Shown here: positions 8,138 to 62,272 of the stretch, in pieces
Numbering within the stretch: position 1 is the stretch's first letter
Layout of the letters: each line of letters opens with the position of its first letter
NCBI GenBank assembly: GCA_028278245.1
Contig: JANQEQ010000055.1
Span: 1 to 64,000 of the forward strand
DNA length: 64,000 nt
Direction of reading: 5' to 3'
Source: Phycisphaerales bacterium
Lineage (GTDB): Bacteria; Planctomycetota; Phycisphaerae; Phycisphaerales; SM1A02
Program-made: the position numbers and the translations under genes
The notes under the pieces: model-generated
Told to the model about the DNA's origin: nothing
What the model saw: the letters and a program-made list of their open reading frames with translations, nothing else
Databases searched by the model: none

Positions 8138-8247
8138 GGTTGCATTTCACTGGGAACAGGGGGGATATGCAAGTGAGACTCGATGTAAACCGGCTCAGAC
8201 GTCTGAGCAAGGCGGGTGAGGAAGAGGCGGATAGGTAGGAAAGAAAT

Positions 8248-8286
8248 CCAAGTCTTCGTGACAAAAATGTCACTCAGACTCGGCTT
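8248..8286. repeat. Dispersed hairpin repeat, family A copy 1
   Basis: CCAAGTCTTCGTGACA...TGTCACTCAGACTCGGCTT forms an imperfect hairpin (GTGACA pairs with TGTCAC; outer AGTCT with AGACT). A second copy in inverse orientation lies at 55556-55597 with a different but still self-complementary loop. It sits in the gap between lptB (start 8137) and the DUF4870 gene (stop 8306). Confidence 0.7.
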
Positions 8287-8305
8287 GTTTTTCCTGAAGC
8301 GGGGA

Positions 8306-11470: not shown

Positions 11471-11505
11471 CGCATCTTCCTCGGGGACTCGTCAGATGCG
11501 GCTTA
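11471..11505. repeat. Dispersed hairpin repeat, family B copy 1
   Basis: A 35-nt sequence starting CGCATCTTCCTCGGGGACTC, with GCATCT pairing with AGATGC. It matches 55615-55649 at 32 of 35 positions. Confidence 0.7.
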
Positions 11506-11524
11506 CGTTTGATTGGTGTGTAAA

Positions 11525-31216: not shown

Positions 31217-32509
31217 ATGTTCAGATCAACCTTCAACCTAGCCTGTACTGCTGTAGGTTGCGTGTTGATCTTTGCGTTATCAGGATGCCAAACCGGAGCG
31301 CAATACAATCCTGCGAGAGATGCGTATTACGATTATGACTTTGCTCAATCATGTACTATTCTGCGCGAAGAAATCATGGGGAGTGATGATGAGCAGGTGA
31401 TTCTCAACAATCTTCGCCTGGGTATGGCGGCATTGGCAGAGGGAGATTGGGAACAGGCAGATCGAGCATTGAACCATTCATTTCATTGGCTCAGCACACC
31501 CGGTCTCAACGATGATCGCAATACCGCGGCAGTACTGACGCACGAAGGTGTCCGCATCTGGAAGGGTGAGCCGTTTGAGCAGGCACTGGGTTATCATTAT
31601 GTGGCAACGCTGCACGCAATCAACAACGATTGGGAAAATGCCCGCGCCGCCGCTGCCAACAGCATCATGCGCCTGAGCGATTTCCAGGAAGGTCCGCAAT
31701 CATATTCCAATAATAATCCCGCAACGAATTTCACCCTGGGTCTGCTCATGCAGGCGATTGCTTCTGATCATGCTTCTCTTGCCGACAGTACACCGCTATA
31801 TGAAGCGGCGTTGAAGAATGATACTGAATTGAGATCAATAATCGATGCGCTTCGACAACGACGTTACAACACCATTCTCCTGCTGGATTTCGGCAAGGGG
31901 CCTTCCAAGAAATCCTTCGGCCCGGACAATGCCCACGCAGAATTCATCAACCAATCAAATCAGCAACATGCAGCACGAATCACGATCAATAAGCAGCAAT
32001 CAATTCGCGCGCTTCCGGTTTGCAATGTCAATGAGCTGGCAGATGAATATACCTGGAATCGTTTTGAGGAAATCAGGCAGACAAAAAGCGCAATCGGTCA
32101 AACGTTGTTCCTCTCCGGCGCGATCCTGGCAGGAGCGAGCGATGACGATTCCACACTCTGGGCCGGCGTGGGGATGATGCTGGCTGGCCTCTTTTCCCGA
32201 GCTACTTCCTCTGCCGATCTACGCTATCTCGATTATGCCCCGCAACTCATCTACCTCATTCCCCTGGAACTGGATCAAATCAGCGATCTCAGCGCGCATA
32301 TCGAACACGTGCCCAATGCGACCATACAACTTCCAGCGATCACACCGGGAACGACCGATCAGCCGCGCGTAATTTATCTTCGCCTCTATCATCATGCTGG
32401 TCCCCAACCAGCCTGGCTGACTACACACAACATGAATCATGAGACACAGGGGAATGATCACACAATGACCCGTGTCTCTGAGAATACACCACCTGGAGAT
32501 TCACCATGA
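31217..32509 (+). CDS. COG3014-like lipoprotein with TPR-like repeats
   Basis: The 430-residue protein has a lipoprotein signal ending ALSGC, then a helical TPR-like region (about 30-190, with EGDWEQADRALNHSFHWL and FEQALGYHYVATLHAINNDWENARAA), followed by a beta-rich domain. This fits the uncharacterised lipoprotein family that accompanies lpoB and ycfL homologues in several Gram-negative bacteria. The stop overlaps the start of the next gene by 4 nt (ATGA), so the two are translationally coupled. Confidence 0.8.
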   Translation: MFRSTFNLACTAVGCVLIFALSGCQTGAQYNPARDAYYDYDFAQSCTILREEIMGSDDEQVILNNLRLGMAALAEGDWEQADRALNHSFHWLSTPGLNDDRNTAAVLTHEGVRIWKGEPFEQALGYHYVATLHAINNDWENARAAAANSIMRLSDFQEGPQSYSNNNPATNFTLGLLMQAIASDHASLADSTPLYEAALKNDTELRSIIDALRQRRYNTILLLDFGKGPSKKSFGPDNAHAEFINQSNQQHAARITINKQQSIRALPVCNVNELADEYTWNRFEEIRQTKSAIGQTLFLSGAILAGASDDDSTLWAGVGMMLAGLFSRATSSADLRYLDYAPQLIYLIPLELDQISDLSAHIEHVPNATIQLPAITPGTTDQPRVIYLRLYHHAGPQPAWLTTHNMNHETQGNDHTMTRVSENTPPGDSP

Positions 32510-32937
32510 CTACGTTGAGCAAGTTTGCATACTTTTTTTTCATCGCAGCATTTGTGATGTTAGCCACCAGTTGCACCGCCCCGCCGGATCTCTCGCCGCC
32601 GACCGGGATGGGCGATCCCTACCCGGCGCCGGAGAATGACCCGCGCATCGCAATCCTCGCACCTGATCTGCGCCCCTGGCTGGGATTCCACACCCCGATT
32701 GTGCAGGATGACGGCCAGCGCCCCATGCACGTGCAACTCCCCGTGCGCAACCTCGCGGAAAAAACTTATCTCATCGACTATCGCATTATCTTTTACGATG
32801 CCAGCGGCTTTGAACTTTCCCCGGTGATGGGCTGGCGCATGGTCGATCTGCGTCCCAAACAAACTGCGCGACTCGATGGCAAAGCGCTCAGTACAGATGC
32901 CGCAAGCTGGCGCGCTGAAGTCAAATGGGCCCGATGA
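32506..32937 (+). CDS. YcfL-like (DUF1425) lipoprotein
   Basis: The 143-residue protein has a lipoprotein signal ending LATSC and a DUF1425-like beta domain: MHVQLPVRNLAEKTYLIDYRIIFYDASGFELSP, MGWRMVDLRPKQTARLDGKAL and the end SWRAEVKWAR. In E. coli ycfL lies next to lpoB. It closes the lipoprotein operon. The last 60 nt (32878-32937) are repeated with 5 mismatches at 34051-34110, beyond the FRG gene, which suggests that a DNA segment was inserted at this gene end. Confidence 0.82.
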   Translation: MTTLSKFAYFFFIAAFVMLATSCTAPPDLSPPTGMGDPYPAPENDPRIAILAPDLRPWLGFHTPIVQDDGQRPMHVQLPVRNLAEKTYLIDYRIIFYDASGFELSPVMGWRMVDLRPKQTARLDGKALSTDAASWRAEVKWAR

Positions 32938-32974
32938 AAACTCGACCGTACTCACAAAACTCCTCAATATGACG

Positions 32975-33817
32975 TCACCAAGTATTCCCCCATGTGCCAT
33001 TATGTAGATTTGAATCTCTTGTCCATCCTTCCGGGTCGGGAAAGAGAGTCGAATAGGATTTATTATGCGCTTTAAGATCATTGAGCACGATATCAGCCCT
33101 AGTCCCTGAGAGAATGAATCTAACTAAGTGGTCTGAAACTACTTTTTGCCGCATAAATGCCTCAAGATCATATACTTTGGTACTGCTAAGCTCTGTAAAC
33201 AACCCTCTTTGAGCCCTTTGCCTTGTTGCGCCAGGCTCGGGAGGAGTACTGTTGTGTATATGAAATTCATCGAACGATGGTAGATTCGAAAGACACAAAG
33301 CCCAAACGGATACACAACCAAATAAACATTCTTCTAGATTATATGACTCATAGCATTGGTAATCGCCGATTTCTATTCCCGGTAAGCGCACTTTTGCGAA
33401 AGCTTCGAAAGCAAAAAATGCTGCTGTAAGCGGGCACCATGTCCAGTCAAGAAGTCGAGTGATGAGACCATGATGTCTGCCAAAAGCCCATAAATTGAAT
33501 GGATTCCAATTAGCAGCTTGGGGGTAGTGTGGAATTAGACATTTACGAAATCGAACAAGTCGAGGTTGTAAATTATCCTCTGATGAGAAATTTTCACCAT
33601 CTCTGAGCATCCCCGGGGGGTGAAGTGCTAATTTTCTTTCAAACCAGCGCTCATAAAGCGACTGAAGTTTCCAGCGCTGATCTTTCCATCCATTGGGAGG
33701 GTCAGGGCTACAGTCAGCATGACCACGAAATATGTAATCATTATTTTCGGTGTATTCTGAGATAAGAGACTTGAATTCATCCCAGGATTTACATTTTATT
33801 TCTTGCACAACTTCCAT
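32975..33817 (-). CDS. FRG-domain protein
   Basis: The 280-residue protein has the FRG motif set: DYIFRGHADCSP, KLQSLYERWF, GRHHGLITRLLDWTWCPLTAAFFAFEAF and ATRQRAQRGLFTELSSTKVY. The name refers to the conserved Phe-Arg-Gly. The domain is found in defence islands and mobile regions, and its biochemistry is not settled. The gene is AT-richer than the flanking lipoprotein genes, has no close partner except a possible 42-residue ORF upstream, and lies inside a segment bounded by a 60-bp gene-end duplication. It is probably acquired cargo. Confidence 0.85.
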   Translation of the reverse strand: MEVVQEIKCKSWDEFKSLISEYTENNDYIFRGHADCSPDPPNGWKDQRWKLQSLYERWFERKLALHPPGMLRDGENFSSEDNLQPRLVRFRKCLIPHYPQAANWNPFNLWAFGRHHGLITRLLDWTWCPLTAAFFAFEAFAKVRLPGIEIGDYQCYESYNLEECLFGCVSVWALCLSNLPSFDEFHIHNSTPPEPGATRQRAQRGLFTELSSTKVYDLEAFMRQKVVSDHLVRFILSGTRADIVLNDLKAHNKSYSTLFPDPEGWTRDSNLHNGTWGNTW

Positions 33818-33915
33818 GGTTAACCATCCTATGCTTCATAGCTATCCGCAATATTTAGTGACCAGCTTAAGTACTGTAGATCAATCATGTACTTAATTGT
33901 TACCTTATCAACAGT

Positions 33916-34044
33916 CTACTCTTCTATACTGAAAGTTCCTCGAGGATTTTCCACAAGTTGCACTACCTTCTGATAAGCTTGCGGTTTACTAAATGTTCGA
34001 CATCCAGCACACAATATAATCTCTAAAGTGATACCACACTTCAT
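33916..34044 (-). CDS. Possible 42-residue Cys-containing protein
   Basis: An ATG at 34044 opens a 42-codon frame starting MKCGITLEIILCAGCRTFSK, ending with a charged tail. It lies within the inserted segment upstream of the FRG gene, between that gene and the duplicated ycfL end. There is no convincing ribosome site. It may be a partner of the FRG protein or a chance frame. Confidence 0.25.
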   Translation of the reverse strand: MKCGITLEIILCAGCRTFSKPQAYQKVVQLVENPRGTFSIEE

Positions 34045-34050
34045 TTGGTT

Positions 34051-34110
34051 GGCAAAGCGCTCAGCACAGATGCCGCAAGCTGGTGCGCTGAAGTCAAATG
34101 GGCACGCTAA
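34051..34110 (+). pseudogene. Duplicated 3' end of the ycfL-like gene
   Basis: This 60-nt stretch matches 32878-32937 at 55 of 60 positions and reads in frame as the end of the YcfL-like protein, closing EVKWAR and a TAA stop. Four of the five differences are synonymous (including the stop), and one changes Arg to Cys. The intervening 1.1 kb carries the FRG gene. It looks like a gene-end relic left by an insertion. Confidence 0.7.
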
Positions 34111-34166
34111 TCCCCCCACACAATAATCCCACATCTCCTCCACATACTTGAGATTGTTGAGTTATA

Positions 34167-34763
34167 TCAACCAATATATTTTTCGTGCAATTCTGTAAGT
34201 AATGTCAAATCACCCTGATCGGCGGTAACGATCGCCTTCAGATATTCCTCGCGGATGATACTGACTGATCCAAGATGCTCTTCCGGCCAACGGGTGGGTT
34301 CGGAACCATGTTTGATGAGCCAGATGTTGGCGAGCAAACGTGACCAACGACCGTTGCCGTTTTCAAACGGATGAATTTGCACCGCGCGATGATGCAGCAG
34401 CGCTGCCTGCTCAACAATGGTCATGTTTGAATCGCGCCAGACTTTCATATCCTCAGCGAGGTTGAGCATGGACGGCTCTATGAGATTAGGCGCGACGCCC
34501 AGATTTTTTTCTGATCGTCGGGGCTTACCCGCCCAGATCCAGACATCGCCGAACATTTCCTTATGCAACTTGAACATCCAGGCGTAGTTAAACGGGGCAG
34601 TACGATTGCTGGGAGGTGCAGCAAGATATTTAACTGCTGCTTTGCGGATGTTGTTTGCTTCATGACGGTTGAGCTCAGCACGCGACGATATGCCGGTAAT
34701 CTTGAGACCGGAGATATCATCCATCGGCGTCTCGCCGGGTATGGTGTCCCAGGTGTTCGTCAT
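34167..34763 (-). CDS. Fic/DOC protein, mobile mystery protein B type
   Basis: Fic proteins usually transfer AMP to target proteins. The 198-residue protein has the active-site motif HPFENGNGR (131-139) and the mobile mystery protein B layout: GETPMDDISGL, SSRAELNRHEANNI, LHKEMFGDVWIWAGK, SEKNLGVAPNLI. The ATG at 34763 overlaps the stop of the upstream HTH gene as ATGA and decides the start. The HTH-Fic order and coupling match the mobile mystery A/B pair, which resembles a toxin-antitoxin or defence unit. Confidence 0.9.
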   Translation of the reverse strand: MTNTWDTIPGETPMDDISGLKITGISSRAELNRHEANNIRKAAVKYLAAPPSNRTAPFNYAWMFKLHKEMFGDVWIWAGKPRRSEKNLGVAPNLIEPSMLNLAEDMKVWRDSNMTIVEQAALLHHRAVQIHPFENGNGRWSRLLANIWLIKHGSEPTRWPEEHLGSVSIIREEYLKAIVTADQGDLTLLTELHEKYIG

Positions 34764-35137
34764 GCCCACAACTTTCTGCGTGAGCCGGCCAGGAGTTCGT
34801 ACATGGTCTGGGTGACCATCAGTTTTTGGGCTTCATCATCCACCGCCTGCCCTTCCAGACCGGAGGTTCCCTGCACCATCGCCACCAGACGCTCGGCTTT
34901 TTGGCGAGCCTGTTGCCGACACATTTGATCAACATCCAGCAGCGGCCGGAGTGAGACATCCAGGCCAAGCGCCCGGGCGATCTTCTCCACCGATTCAAAG
35001 GTGGCGGTGTGATAATCATCCAGCACGCGATTCACCGTCGACAGCGATACCCCGCTGCGTCGGGCGAGCAGAGCGTGGCTCATGCCCAACTCCCGGCACC
35101 TTTGCTTGAGATCAACCTGGGGTAATGGAGCGGCCAT
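34760..35137 (-). CDS. XRE-type HTH protein, mobile mystery protein A type
   Basis: The ATG at 35137 has AGGA 6 nt upstream; a start 18 nt earlier lacks one. The 125-residue protein has an XRE helix-turn-helix (CRELGMSHALLARRSGVSLSTVNRVLDDYHTATFESVEKIARALG) and a tail (RQQARQKAERLVAMVQGTSGLEGQAVDDEA) resembling that of mobile mystery protein A. Its probable role is repressor and antitoxin of the coupled Fic protein. It is preceded by an AT-rich region (35160-35330) that probably holds its promoter and that of the divergent gene at 35330. Confidence 0.82.
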   Translation of the reverse strand: MAAPLPQVDLKQRCRELGMSHALLARRSGVSLSTVNRVLDDYHTATFESVEKIARALGLDVSLRPLLDVDQMCRQQARQKAERLVAMVQGTSGLEGQAVDDEAQKLMVTQTMYELLAGSRRKLWA

Positions 35138-35329
35138 ACAGGATCCTATCGTCATCCGAGCATGAAAAACATATCATATATGATATTAAATTCCACATAT
35201 TTATTTCATTTGTGACATTATCTGATTGCAATGGTATTCAACGAAGTTAAATTAATTTACAATTTATTCAAAATCTATTTGCATATTTCACAATAAATAT
35301 CAATATTGTTGAAGTTGATGTGAGTAACT

Positions 35330-35710: not shown

Positions 35711-36103
35711 ATGATGCTCATGATGAATCTGTTTGATGGAACTTTTCTGACCACAGTCGAGCCGTGGTTTTCCAACATGGGAATGGTCGGCGGCCTTGTG
35801 GGTGGTGGAGTCGGCGTTCTGGGAGGATTGTACGGCACGTTGATAGGGATACTCGCTCCGCGTGGCAAAGCGAAATCATTCATGTTTGCTTTTCACTGGC
35901 TGATGCTGGCGATCGGTATCGCAATGATCTACCTGTCTGTTTACGCGCTGATGACCGGTCAACCGTACGGTGTCTGGTACGGCCTGGGCTTACCCGGATT
36001 GATAGTCACGGCGTTGATGATTACCTTCACCCCGATGTTGAAGAAAGTCTATCGCGCTGCAGAGCAACGCCAACTCGAAGCGCAGGAGTTTTTGCAGAGT
36101 TGA
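35711..36103 (+). CDS. Small multi-pass membrane protein
   Basis: The 130-residue protein has a glycine-zipper-like segment (MVGGLVGGGVGVLGGLYGTLIG) and two further helices (WLMLAIGIAMIYLSVYALM; GLPGLIVTALMITFTPML), ending EAQEFLQS. AAGGAG precedes the ATG. The family is not recognised beyond its co-occurrence with the DUF2089-like gene. A degenerate copy of its last 29 nt lies at 36201-36229. Confidence 0.72.
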   Translation: MMLMMNLFDGTFLTTVEPWFSNMGMVGGLVGGGVGVLGGLYGTLIGILAPRGKAKSFMFAFHWLMLAIGIAMIYLSVYALMTGQPYGVWYGLGLPGLIVTALMITFTPMLKKVYRAAEQRQLEAQEFLQS

Positions 36104-36200: not shown

Positions 36201-36229
36201 TCGAAGCGCAGGAGTGTCTGCAAGATTAA
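36201..36229 (+). repeat. Degenerate copy of the 3' end of the preceding gene
   Basis: This matches 36075-36103 at 23 of 29 positions and still reads FEAQECLQD and a TAA in frame with the gene's LEAQEFLQS end. It is a second example in this window of a duplicated gene end. Confidence 0.5.
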
Positions 36230-37180: not shown

Positions 37181-38785
37181 TTGTGTGGGGGGGTGGGGGT
37201 TGTGTATGTGTGGGGGGGAAGCGATGATGCATTGGTGAAACACAGACGGACTAACACATCGACAAATGATCTCGGCCGGGAGCAGCGCGCTGAAGTTGTC
37301 GATGCACAAGCTGCCGACGGCAAGACGACCTGGCTCGTGCTGGGTCTGGTCACGCTGGGATGTGTAGCTCGGCTGCCCCGTCTGAGTGAAAGTCTCTGGT
37401 ATGACGAGATCGCTGCCTGGCTGGATTACGCGCAGCAGGGGCCGCGAGTGATTGTCACGACATACTTTGATCCGGCCAATCATATTTTCCACACATTACT
37501 TTCCTCTGTGTCGGTTCAATGGCTGGGTTCGTGGTTTGGCCAGGAGTTGGCATTGCGCTTCCCGGCATTTGTGTTTTCACTACTTTCGATCGTGATGGTG
37601 TATTTTCTGGGGCGGGTTGTTGCGGGCAGGCGTGTTGCGTTCTTTGCGGGTTTGTTCGCTGCGGTTCTTCCGGTATCTGTGCTTGAAGGTGTTGAAGCGC
37701 GCGGCTACAGCATGATGATCTGCGCATCTGCCGCCTCCACGTGGATAATCCTCTCTGCCTTTCAGCGCAATGCGTGGTGGAAGTGGATTATCTATGCAGT
37801 GATCTGCGCGCAGGGAATCTGGGCGCACATGATGACGGTGTGGATCGTTGTTGGTCACTTTTTCTGGTTGCTCGGCCGCGGCGCAAGTATTACATCAATC
37901 ATACACCATCAAGAACCCACTCGTCTCCGACAACAAATTATGTTCAGGGGGATGGGAATAACGGCAATTTTTCTGACGGCGCTGGTAACGTTTGTGCTGT
38001 ATTTACCTGCGATCGAAGACATCTGGCAGATGCGCAATCAGTTCACAGCGGAAACGGGTGATGAGCCAAGAGTACTGGGGGAAGAAGGATTGCATACGCT
38101 TCTCCAGTTAGGTGGTTCGTGGTATTGGTGGGCGACAATCCCCGGACTTGTGCTTTTCGCGCTGGGTATATTTGCTTCCATGCGATCAAAAGGATTACCG
38201 GATCAAACATCGGGTAAAACTTATGTTCATCCGGGTTCTACGCTACTGCTTTCTCTGCTGGGACTGCCGATCATGGCGATTGTTCTTTACTTTGCCAATT
38301 CGTGGATGTATGCGCGCTTTGCCCTGTTTGTGTTGCCGGGCGCCATTCTGGCCATGGCAATCGGCCTGGAGTGGTTGTGGAGAAAGAACACTATTTGCGG
38401 AGGGATCATGCTACTTTGTGTGGGGGGGTGGGGGGTAGGGGATTTGAGTGTGCGTCCACCGAAACAGCCGTTACGTGAGGCTGCGGAAATCGTACGCACA
38501 GCACGCACTCCCGGGGAGGAGGTGTCCATTATTGGATTGCGACATCGCGTGATGAAAGTGTATGCTGCCGATCTGTATCCCGATTACATCTCAAACCGTG
38601 GCCAGGATTTCTCTCACCAGTTTGCACGTTCCAAGTCACATTGGATTATTATTTTGTATCCGCATCTTCTCCAGCAGGATCAGTGGGACACGTTTCAACG
38701 ACATGGTTACGTCAAGCATGCACACCTTGACGGCTGGGTCGATTGGGGCAGAGGCGATGTGATCGTGTTACAATACAAAGATTAA
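37181..38785 (+). CDS. Membrane glycosyltransferase-like (GT39/ArnT type) protein
   Basis: A protein of about 500-534 residues with many hydrophobic helices. SLWYDEIAAWLD at about 70 matches the conserved first-loop motif with the catalytic DE of ArnT/PMT-type enzymes, which use polyprenyl-phosphate sugars. A C-terminal soluble part of about 100 residues ends WGRGDVIVLQYKD. The start is uncertain because the first 20 codons run through GTGTGGGGGGG tracts (37181-37220); a GTG at 37235 is possible. A second G-tract at 38419-38438 is in frame (VGGWGVG). The stop TAA overlaps the stop of the retron gene on the other strand. Confidence 0.8.
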   Translation: MCGGVGVVYVWGGSDDALVKHRRTNTSTNDLGREQRAEVVDAQAADGKTTWLVLGLVTLGCVARLPRLSESLWYDEIAAWLDYAQQGPRVIVTTYFDPANHIFHTLLSSVSVQWLGSWFGQELALRFPAFVFSLLSIVMVYFLGRVVAGRRVAFFAGLFAAVLPVSVLEGVEARGYSMMICASAASTWIILSAFQRNAWWKWIIYAVICAQGIWAHMMTVWIVVGHFFWLLGRGASITSIIHHQEPTRLRQQIMFRGMGITAIFLTALVTFVLYLPAIEDIWQMRNQFTAETGDEPRVLGEEGLHTLLQLGGSWYWWATIPGLVLFALGIFASMRSKGLPDQTSGKTYVHPGSTLLLSLLGLPIMAIVLYFANSWMYARFALFVLPGAILAMAIGLEWLWRKNTICGGIMLLCVGGWGVGDLSVRPPKQPLREAAEIVRTARTPGEEVSIIGLRHRVMKVYAADLYPDYISNRGQDFSHQFARSKSHWIIILYPHLLQQDQWDTFQRHGYVKHAHLDGWVDWGRGDVIVLQYKD

Positions 38786-40560
38786 CATGAATTAGTTAAT
38801 TTTGTACCAACTCCTGGTATATCACGCCAATGTCCTATTGCTATCGCCTGACCATAGGGTCGATGTGGAGCATCGTTTGCTGGTTTTCTAAACGAATTTT
38901 CAACCATTACGCCGATACAATACCCGTTTGCATCAAGCAGTGGGGCACCGCTTATGGCAGGTCCACCCTCAAAGGACACTGTGAGAAACCGGGCTTCTCT
39001 ATAGCCTTTCATTACAGATTCAATTCTACCCACATGCATTACTAAACCTACGTGACGAAAGGCAATATCTGGATACCCGAGAGCAATTACCTCCTCCCCG
39101 ATAACCGGTAACCTCTCTTGCGTCAGGATAAATGAATTGGTCCATTCCTCTGGTAGTTCTGCGGATCCAAACGCAAGATCAATGTCGCCCTGTTCACCGC
39201 ATATTGCTTTGATGCAAGTTAATTCAATTGAAGAATCAAGTGGTAACGTGAGATAAAGATTTCGTTCCACCTCGTTGCCATCGGAAGCTCTAAGTATTCT
39301 ATTATGACCAGCAGTCAGGAACTGTATTGGCCCAACCCGGAACGCAGTTCCATAATTTTCATCCTCTGTATTAGGGTTTACACACAGTAGTCGAAACACG
39401 CAATCACTGTACTTGCTTGACCAGAGTTTCCAATTTGGAGAGAGCCTACTTCTTCGTTGAATCGGCTGTCCGTTTTGATCGCAAAGCGGTATTGGTGATT
39501 TAAAAATATTTCTATTAATGCGTAGAGCGTCATTTTGTAATCGGCGTACAATATGGTCTTCTGAACCTCGTACCATCGAAAGATAAGCAAGCTTTCCCCG
39601 AATGACATTCAAAATCCAATTCCCAGAATCGCCAAGGATTGTGCGATGATGTTTCTCCGCGTGGATCTTTGCTGCGGAGGCAATGCCCACGGTTTGGCAG
39701 GAATGTATCAGTGCACGAAGTTCTCGAATGTAATTGCGAGGTACATTCACGAACTCGTTTACTACTAGTCCGGTTGCCATCTGCCGACGCAAAGAAGTAC
39801 GTAATCGAGTCTTTCCATCACGGATTGAAAACTTATGGTTGTTTATTGTTTCAACAAGATTCTTTCCAAGGTGACAGGTGCCTAAAGCATCGATTGTGGC
39901 AACTTCTGGAGGGAATTTGCGCTGGTTTGTCGAGAATGAAATATCATCGGCATATCTCGTGTAAACGAGTCGATATTCTTTTGCGAGTTCAAGAAGTGAA
40001 TAATCGAGCGGTGAGCAGACCATGTTTGCTAGAATTGGCGACGTAGGTGCACCTTGTGGAAGGTGACCATCATCATGACACGCGATCTGTCCAATCGTAA
40101 GCGCAGCGCCTGATCCTAGAGAATATGGTGCTGATTTTAGAATACCTCGCACTCGACCAATGTGTATGGAAGGGAAAAAATTATCGAGGTCAAGATTTAG
40201 AACATACCGTTTGCCAATATGTAACTGGGCATTATCGAGAATACACCTGTCGCGAGTGAAACCTGTAACGCACATCCTCGGGTTGAATATGAGAGTTAGG
40301 ACACGAAGTAGTTTATCCTGCAATATTCGAATGTTCTTTGTTGGTATGCAGATCCGACGTACTTCACCATCCTTCTTCGGTATGGCATGTTCGGAATAAT
40401 GTTTTCGTTCTTTAGCAACATAAAGAATCCAACGTAAAGTTCGTGGTGCTATTTCCAAAAGTGCAGCAACATCTTTCTGAGATTCCAGTTCCCTGAATTT
40501 CCTTCGAATATCAGAGTCTGAAGCAATCAGATAAGGTTTGAGTGATGTGGCTCGAGGCAC
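38782..40560 (-). CDS. Retron reverse transcriptase fused to trypsin-like protease
   Basis: The 592-residue protein starts at GTG 40560. Residues about 15-320 are a reverse transcriptase: NAQLH (110-114, the retron NAXXH motif), LDLDNFFPS (123-131), QGAPTSPILANM, YADD (203-206) and ATGLVVN (262-268, the VTG motif of retrons with Ala for Val). From about 385 a trypsin-like peptidase follows: TAGH (H419), DLAF (D461) and ISGAP (S537) give an intact-looking triad. Retrons make a branched RNA-DNA molecule, and many guard against phage; here the effector would be the protease. A matching msr-msd candidate lies directly upstream. The gene is AT-rich relative to its neighbours, which suggests transfer. 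Confidence 0.93.
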   Translation of the reverse strand: MPRATSLKPYLIASDSDIRRKFRELESQKDVAALLEIAPRTLRWILYVAKERKHYSEHAIPKKDGEVRRICIPTKNIRILQDKLLRVLTLIFNPRMCVTGFTRDRCILDNAQLHIGKRYVLNLDLDNFFPSIHIGRVRGILKSAPYSLGSGAALTIGQIACHDDGHLPQGAPTSPILANMVCSPLDYSLLELAKEYRLVYTRYADDISFSTNQRKFPPEVATIDALGTCHLGKNLVETINNHKFSIRDGKTRLRTSLRRQMATGLVVNEFVNVPRNYIRELRALIHSCQTVGIASAAKIHAEKHHRTILGDSGNWILNVIRGKLAYLSMVRGSEDHIVRRLQNDALRINRNIFKSPIPLCDQNGQPIQRRSRLSPNWKLWSSKYSDCVFRLLCVNPNTEDENYGTAFRVGPIQFLTAGHNRILRASDGNEVERNLYLTLPLDSSIELTCIKAICGEQGDIDLAFGSAELPEEWTNSFILTQERLPVIGEEVIALGYPDIAFRHVGLVMHVGRIESVMKGYREARFLTVSFEGGPAISGAPLLDANGYCIGVMVENSFRKPANDAPHRPYGQAIAIGHWRDIPGVGTKLTNSC

Positions 40561-55258: not shown

Positions 55259-55555
55259 TGGTCAACCTCCATAGGTTCGGCGAAAACTCGCCAGATGAAT
55301 TTCAGGCTTCCGGTCAACTGTAGCGGCGAGCTATCGGACCTTCCACCAGAGGGCTCAAATGCCACCCAAGAAGGGCAACAGGCGTACCATTCCATCGGTT
55401 TCCCATGCCCTGTCCATCACTAATTCAGGGCAATGTAACGGCTCCAATGGATGCCGATTTCTCCCTGAGGAGGACGCGATATGCCATATTGGCGGCATGT
55501 ATCTATCCGTATAAACCGGTGTTCACCCACCTTTATGCCGGAAATAGCAGAAAAG

Positions 55556-55597
55556 AAGCCGAGTCTGAGTGACAGAATTTCTGTCACGAAGACTTGG
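55556..55597. repeat. Dispersed hairpin repeat, family A copy 2
   Basis: AAGCCGAGTCTGAGTGACAG...CTGTCACGAAGACTTGG is an inverse copy of 8248-8286. Its inner stem is longer (GTGACAGAA-TTTCTGTCAC) but preserved by compensating changes. The 377-nt gap between clpC (start 55258) and lolD (stop 55636) holds this repeat and family B copy 2, plus the clpC leader. Confidence 0.7.
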
Positions 55598-55614
55598 GTC
55601 TTCACGACACTATC

Positions 55615-55649
55615 CGCATCTTCCTCGGAGACTCGTCAAATGCGGTTTA
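55615..55649. repeat. Dispersed hairpin repeat, family B copy 2
   Basis: This matches 11471-11505 at 32 of 35 positions. It overlaps the last codons of lolD, so the stop codon (55636-55638) lies within the repeat. Confidence 0.7.
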
Positions 55650-61155: not shown

Positions 61156-62272
61156 GAATAAGCCTGATCGGGATGTCAATGGTCTGGTCGCCGGTGATTT
61201 TCTCCAGCGGCTTGCCCCGGGCGCGCCAGCGATACAAGCTATTGCGAATGGCATCATCAATACGATAATCGCCGCTGGTTTCAACAACACCCGCTTTGCG
61301 TGGAACACCATCGGGACCGAACTTAATATTCACCAGCGGATTGCCCGGAGAGGCAGTCAGCAACTGTAAAGTCGTAAATTCGGGCTTGCGGGGTCTTAAT
61401 TCCAGACCGTGCGCAGCGAGCGGTTTGCCGATCTTAATATCATCGAGTGAGACATCGACTACCGAAGTGGGTTGTGACTGTTTATCCGCAGGATCGCCCG
61501 GCTCCGGTTCCGATTCTGACTGAGCCTCGGGTGTTGGTAGTTGACTTGCTGCTGATGTGTATGCTGCGGCCATCTCTTGCAGAGTTTTCATCAATTGACG
61601 CAAACCGGGTTTCGTTTGAGTCAACTCGGGTGGCTGTTTTTCCTGCGGCTTTGACGGATCCGGTGATTCGGTTTCAGGTGCAGATGCAGATTTTTCATCG
61701 CCGATATCAAACGGCGTCATCTCCGGCTCGGGTGAAAACTCAGCAGCCGTGTTAATTTGTGTCGACTCATCCCTCACTGCCAGATCAGGCAGGATTGAAG
61801 TCGACTGAGCCGGTGTTGCGCTTTGTTCCTCACCGGGTGGTGGGGGATCACTTTGTGCCATGATCTCTGATTGGTGTGCCGGTACAGAGATGCTTTCAAC
61901 GGCTACTTTTTGTGTGGGGGGGGTGGGAGGGGAGTGGTCAATTTGAGGGCGTGGTGGAGTGATATGTGTGGGGGGGGTAAATGATGCTTGTTCGACTTCT
62001 GAAAGTTCCGCCATGTGTTCCTGATATTCATCGTAACCGACCCAGGTAAGTGTGGAAGCAGTTCCCTCATCCAGACCCAGTGGAGGTGTCGGATCCTCAT
62101 GCTTCGGTTTGGGGAGCAGGTAATCATCATCATCGAATTGTGCGTCTACGGACTTGATTAACGCTGAACTGCTCATCATTGCCATCAGCGGACCGATCGC
62201 AACAACGTGCAGCATCAGTGACAGCAGCAAACCCCCCAGCAGAGGCCAATTGAATCGACGACGATCCATCAC
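61133..62272 (-). CDS. TonB-like protein
   Basis: A 379-residue protein with one N-terminal helix (about 10-33), a long Pro/Thr/Glu-rich linker of about 225 residues (with TPPTHITPPRP, HSPPTPPTQK and PSKPQEKQPPELTQTKP), and a C-terminal TonB-like domain with NPLVNIKFGPDGVPRKAGVVETSGDYRIDDAIRNSLYRWRARGKP. Two G-tract stretches (61917-61925, 61966-61977) encode part of the linker. It is followed upstream by an ExbD-like gene on the same strand, so it probably couples membrane potential to outer-membrane transport. ExbB was not found in the window. Confidence 0.82.
   Translation of the reverse strand: MMDRRRFNWPLLGGLLLSLMLHVVAIGPLMAMMSSSALIKSVDAQFDDDDYLLPKPKHEDPTPPLGLDEGTASTLTWVGYDEYQEHMAELSEVEQASFTPPTHITPPRPQIDHSPPTPPTQKVAVESISVPAHQSEIMAQSDPPPPGEEQSATPAQSTSILPDLAVRDESTQINTAAEFSPEPEMTPFDIGDEKSASAPETESPDPSKPQEKQPPELTQTKPGLRQLMKTLQEMAAAYTSAASQLPTPEAQSESEPEPGDPADKQSQPTSVVDVSLDDIKIGKPLAAHGLELRPRKPEFTTLQLLTASPGNPLVNIKFGPDGVPRKAGVVETSGDYRIDDAIRNSLYRWRARGKPLEKITGDQTIDIPIRLILTRRALP

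Follow-up and report, generated by a model that had tools for sequence, protein, structure and literature searches.

A ycfL-like gene of the DUF1425 family (PF07233, E 2e-10) lies intact in the window, by which we mean the whole 64,000-nucleotide stretch of DNA analysed here. Its last 60 nucleotides (nt) recur downstream, beyond a short segment that carries one FRG-domain gene (Table 1).

Table 1. Positions in the window of the ycfL-like gene, the two copies of its end and the DNA between and after them
Feature	Positions	Strand	Basis or remark
DUF1425 (ycfL-like) gene, intact, proposed host gene of the insertion, ends with copy 1	32506..32937	+	PF07233; orthologues found in 20 further genomes of the family
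Copy 1 of the 60-nt gene end, attL-like; last codons probably arrived with the insert	32878..32937	+
Putative inserted segment, AT-rich, 1,113 bp	32938..34050	.	GC 0.415 vs 0.528 for the window
Intact FRG-domain gene encoding 280 aa; candidate defence effector	32975..33817	-	PF08867; PADLOC PDC-S15; protein alignment (17 FRG sequences)
Copy 2 of the gene end, attR-like fragment; tail probably the original resident end	34051..34110	+	Host-typical tract follows
CCCCCCACACAA tract, separated by one base from the copy 2 stop codon, frequent in the genome	34112..34123	+	31 genome sites

Anatomy of the duplicated gene end

Sequence comparison confirmed the predicted recurrence of the gene end, in frame and with a stop. 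The two copies (borders given as 32877/8-32937 and 34050/1-34110) start 1173 bp apart and are 95% identical over 57 nt (blastn E 4e-18 within the window), with five mismatches across the full 60 nt at positions 15, 34, 54, 57 and 59. Written as copy 1/copy 2, the codon differences are AGT/AGC, CGC/TGC (Arg to Cys), GCC/GCA, CGA/CGC and TGA/TAA. Four of the five are synonymous, as predicted, if stop-for-stop is counted as such, and at least four synonymous changes among five random ones would arise with a chance of about 0.9% (any change) or about 2.3% (the same kinds of change). Thus, the concentration of differences at silent sites suggests either two functioning source genes or a long separation of the ends. 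The single non-synonymous mismatch places Cys in copy 2 at a site occupied by Arg in 14 of 15 relatives, a loss that fits a displaced end free of selection.

Copy 2, though in frame and closed by a stop, is a 60-nt fragment that follows unrelated DNA and is no gene. Similarity in the flanks upstream and downstream of both copies does not rise above that of shuffled sequences, and the 60-nt end is present only twice in the whole genome, where the next-best matches reach at most 20 nt.

The sequences that follow the two copies differ in character. The CCCCCCACACAA tract after copy 2 has 31 exact copies in the genome, compared with none for a reversed control pattern, and begins 2-20 bp after an ORF stop at 5 of the 30 loci examined. 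Directly after copy 1 lies the AT-rich insert. Because a genome-typical tract follows copy 2 and AT-rich DNA follows copy 1, the tail of copy 2 is probably the original resident end and that of copy 1 the replacement. Within the window the tract also occurs at 37181-37192, 38416-38427 and 61910-61921, in addition to 34112-34123. Inverted CCCCCCACACAA tracts at 34112 and 37181 were considered as the ends of one element, and this candidate was rejected given the 31 occurrences in the genome.

The intervening DNA matched its predicted character, being AT-rich (41.5% GC, compared with 52.8% for the window) and carrying an FRG gene. This gene is convergent with the host gene, their stops lying 37 bp apart, and has an AT-rich upstream region of 233 bp inside the insert. 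Its GC at third codon positions (GC3) is 0.345, against 0.515-0.667 for eight measured neighbours (the retron reverse transcriptase described below set apart). The protein matches Pfam PF08867 (E 6e-13; 50 bits, against a curated cut-off of 25) and the candidate defence family PDC-S15 of PADLOC (E 2e-36). Like FRG-domain proteins of these families, it has the residues that are invariant in the alignment, with R31, G32, F90, G117, D124, A132, F135, A136, R199 and Q203 common to all 17 aligned FRG proteins. A sequence comparison with solved structures returned no match, and a single-sequence structure model of the protein was poor (pLDDT 44). A published account assigns FRG domains to the ADP-ribosyltransferase superfamily and suggests that they may serve as NADase effectors in immunity (PMC9503650). 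A promoter and terminator scan of 32900-34200 gave no more than shuffled sequences did, and Rfam gave no match at gathering scores across the whole window.

The FRG gene is the sole one in its own genome. FRG matches occur in 43 of 298 genomes of the class, own genome counted, and among these 298 none lies in another genome of the same family. The closest other match in this set is 34% identical over residues 95-278, and the closest relatives are at about 28-34% identity; no close relative was found in genome contigs, viral contigs, phages or plasmids. The gene end had no exact match in the viral and genome contigs searched, and no related insert, phage or plasmid carrying the repeat was found. 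At 29 FRG loci in other genomes, the stretches examined held no comparable flanking repeat pair; one of the loci studied (L042) has a 66-bp repeat pair that is situated beyond its FRG gene. The stretches checked around integrases likewise held no comparable pair.

The site in related genomes

We found the host gene in 21 of 181 genomes of the family, own genome counted. Two matches occur in the own genome only, and a second gene end is seen in 0 of the 20 others. Direct inspection of 15 relatives revealed no second gene end in the downstream DNA available, which ranged from 355 bp to 9.3 kb and was scanned to 6 kb, two of the relatives giving merely 355 and 694 bp. Thus, relatives that lack the FRG gene yet have two gene ends, which would speak against an insertion, are absent from both sets. 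Two genomes of the order outside the family have two matches each, located on different contigs or far apart.

Gene order upstream of the host gene agrees with that in relatives. In three genomes of genus g250, a glycosyltransferase gene lies about 66 bp beyond the host gene, and a gene for a MacB-like permease comes next. In the window these genes are found at about 37.2-38.8 and 40.8-42.2 kb, the glycosyltransferase 4.2 kb further on than in g250, and the window has extra DNA in both gaps of this order. The first gap additionally holds the FRG gene, a mobile-mystery A/B pair, a DUF2089 gene, a membrane gene and an AIM24 gene; the second, between the glycosyltransferase and MacB-like genes, holds a type XI retron reverse transcriptase-protease. 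Other relatives have differing spacings and genes 3' of the host gene.

These comparisons bear out the expected uninterrupted site with a single gene end at the level of the family, in genus g250, but not among closer relatives: the nearest relatives with the host gene are of different genera, with no more than 66% identity in the host protein, and the empty site is known from other genera alone, the genome set being without a genome of the same genus. The expectation of other cargo at the same site was not supported; none was found when downstream ORFs in relatives were listed and compared with the genes of the window.

The original prediction had stated that no integrase is present, and the ORFs of the insert bear this out, FRG being its sole gene, with no integrase, other recombinase or remnant of one. 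No integrase lies near the host gene in 17 relatives either, those on the same contig being more than 50 kb away. The own genome has three tyrosine recombinases above cut-off, all on other contigs, and gave no match to a serine recombinase. On one of these contigs (C27), an AriA/AriB-like (PARIS) gene pair (L091 1751-5346) adjoins a tyrosine recombinase gene. On another (C88), a SoFic-type Fic gene and a gene for a RelA/SpoT-domain protein (L090 154-5191) lie near a second one.

Origin of the duplicated end

We favour, with moderate confidence, the insertion of an element that supplied a new gene end, in the manner of prophage e14 at icd; its integrase would have been lost or have acted from elsewhere. 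The repeat is unique, its borders are sharp, the enclosed DNA is foreign-like in composition and relatives have a single end; against this stand the missing integrase, the want of a related insert, FRG loci elsewhere without repeats and the very small size of 1.17 kb. The predicted replacement end is thus supported in part, by the single end in relatives and the resident DNA after copy 2, but neither cargo variants nor nearby integrases accompany it in relatives.

Under such an insertion, a piece of DNA, probably circular, would have carried the FRG gene and a short match to the end of the ycfL-like gene, and would have recombined with the chromosome inside the 60-nt match. The resident gene end would have been split off to 34051-34110 while the gene received a substitute end, so that the protein remained whole. 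An integrase-driven insertion at the 3' end of a gene has this outcome. That one copy arrived with the insert, and where the crossover fell, are inferred. The recombinase may have been lost afterwards or may have acted from elsewhere, or RecA-type recombination over the short match may have sufficed; these routes cannot be told apart. The FRG gene would then have been retained as antiphage cargo, its effect probably resting on the consumption of NAD+ in infected cells, an activity proposed in print for FRG domains.

The main and serious rival, which we nevertheless regard as somewhat unlikely, is a tandem duplicate of the ycfL-like gene that arose in this lineage, after which an insertion or deletion with the FRG gene left only the last 60 nt of the second copy. 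Silent differences and an abrupt 5' border would likewise be expected of such a remnant, and resident DNA after copy 2 fits an insertion and a lost tandem duplicate alike, because both would leave it. The neighbouring membrane gene at 35711-36103 seems a similar case, with 29 nt of its end (36075-36103) recurring in frame and with a stop at 36201-36229, 126 bp downstream; the gene is doubled in some relatives, and this recurrence is probably the remnant of a tandem paralogue. The ycfL-like gene itself, however, has no second copy in any of the 20 other family genomes that have it. Additionally, the rest of the gene compared with the insert scores as shuffled sequences do, leaving no trace of a second gene, and two or three events would be needed where an insertion needs one.

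The remaining alternatives fare worse. An assembly artefact is conceivable for a draft genome in 180 contigs at 88.8% completeness, but the copies share identical runs of at most 19 nt, too short to mislead a usual assembly, which makes a repeat-caused error unlikely. The contig is also 87 kb long and its upstream gene order is as in relatives, and we consider an artefact very unlikely. Transposition with a long target-site duplication would account for the flanking direct repeats, yet there is no transposase among the ORFs of the insert and there are no terminal inverted repeats at its borders. A target-site duplication of 60 nt is also far longer than usual, and a displaced duplicate should differ from the working copy more randomly than by the mainly silent changes seen here; we hold this to be highly improbable. 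A single gene flanked by two repeats, each about 60 nt long, also recalls an integron-type gene cassette, with the repeat as attC. attC sites have the core motifs GTTRRRY and RYYYAAC, each the reverse complement of the other, and both are absent from 32860-33000 and 34000-34125. With the repeat being coding sequence of the neighbouring gene, this reading has virtually no chance of being correct.

The favoured insertion has known counterparts. Prophage e14 of Escherichia coli reportedly has its own integrase. As described in print, this 15-kb element provides a replacement 3' end for icd, and the displaced end, 163 bp long, stays as a fragment at the far border (PMC6379469). The present locus resembles that account in its replacement 3' end of a protein-coding gene, its displaced fragment and the conservative differences between the ends; unlike e14, it spans 1.17 kb, with a 60-nt end, one gene and no integrase. 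Of the features expected of an integrase-driven element of the e14/icd type, direct repeats beside an intact gene, with an end probably brought by the insert, and a single end where the element is absent (in other genera) are seen here, whereas an integrase within the element and integrase-bearing elements at the same site (17 relatives) are not. A survey of Thaumarchaeota places 14 of 68 elements with defined sites in the 3' parts of protein genes, where, as here, the insert restores the reading frame and stop. The elements described there differ in that they include proviruses, casposons and other larger classes, with repeats that are generally short, 13 bp in the worked example (PMC6563490).

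The kind of insertion is already known, and the small size and missing integrase make this locus a modestly interesting example. A bolder version of the insertion reading, which we think unlikely, is a non-autonomous defence cassette of a single gene that borrows an integrase and has only a gene-end attachment site, repairing the gene it enters. Such a cassette would be a much-reduced equivalent, for one antiphage gene, of satellite islands. Defence genes that stand alone frequently lack a visible carrier. Should a cassette of 1.2 kb that has no more than a gene-end attachment site prove able to move by a borrowed enzyme, this could account for many lone defence genes that follow intact housekeeping genes, and such cases could be searched for through duplicated gene ends; if the locus is a decayed island, it would be ordinary.

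Neighbouring genes and other repeats

A gene for mobile mystery protein B (a Fic protein, above cut-off) and one for a protein A-like helix-turn-helix partner (below cut-off) adjoin the FRG insert at 34167-35155 on the minus strand. The retron reverse transcriptase noted above is type XI retron-like and fused to a trypsin-like protease (38782-40560, minus strand; PADLOC RT-Protease_XI, E 1e-127). Its gene has a GC3 of 0.346 and separates two genes that stand side by side in genus g250. The repeated end of the membrane gene, at 36201-36229, was considered as a second cassette and rejected, given the tandem gene in relatives and stronger matches in an upstream control scan. Interspersed repeats lie at distant places in the window (8218-8291, 55551-55626 and 11471-11508), the first two having CAAGTCTTCGTGACA in common.
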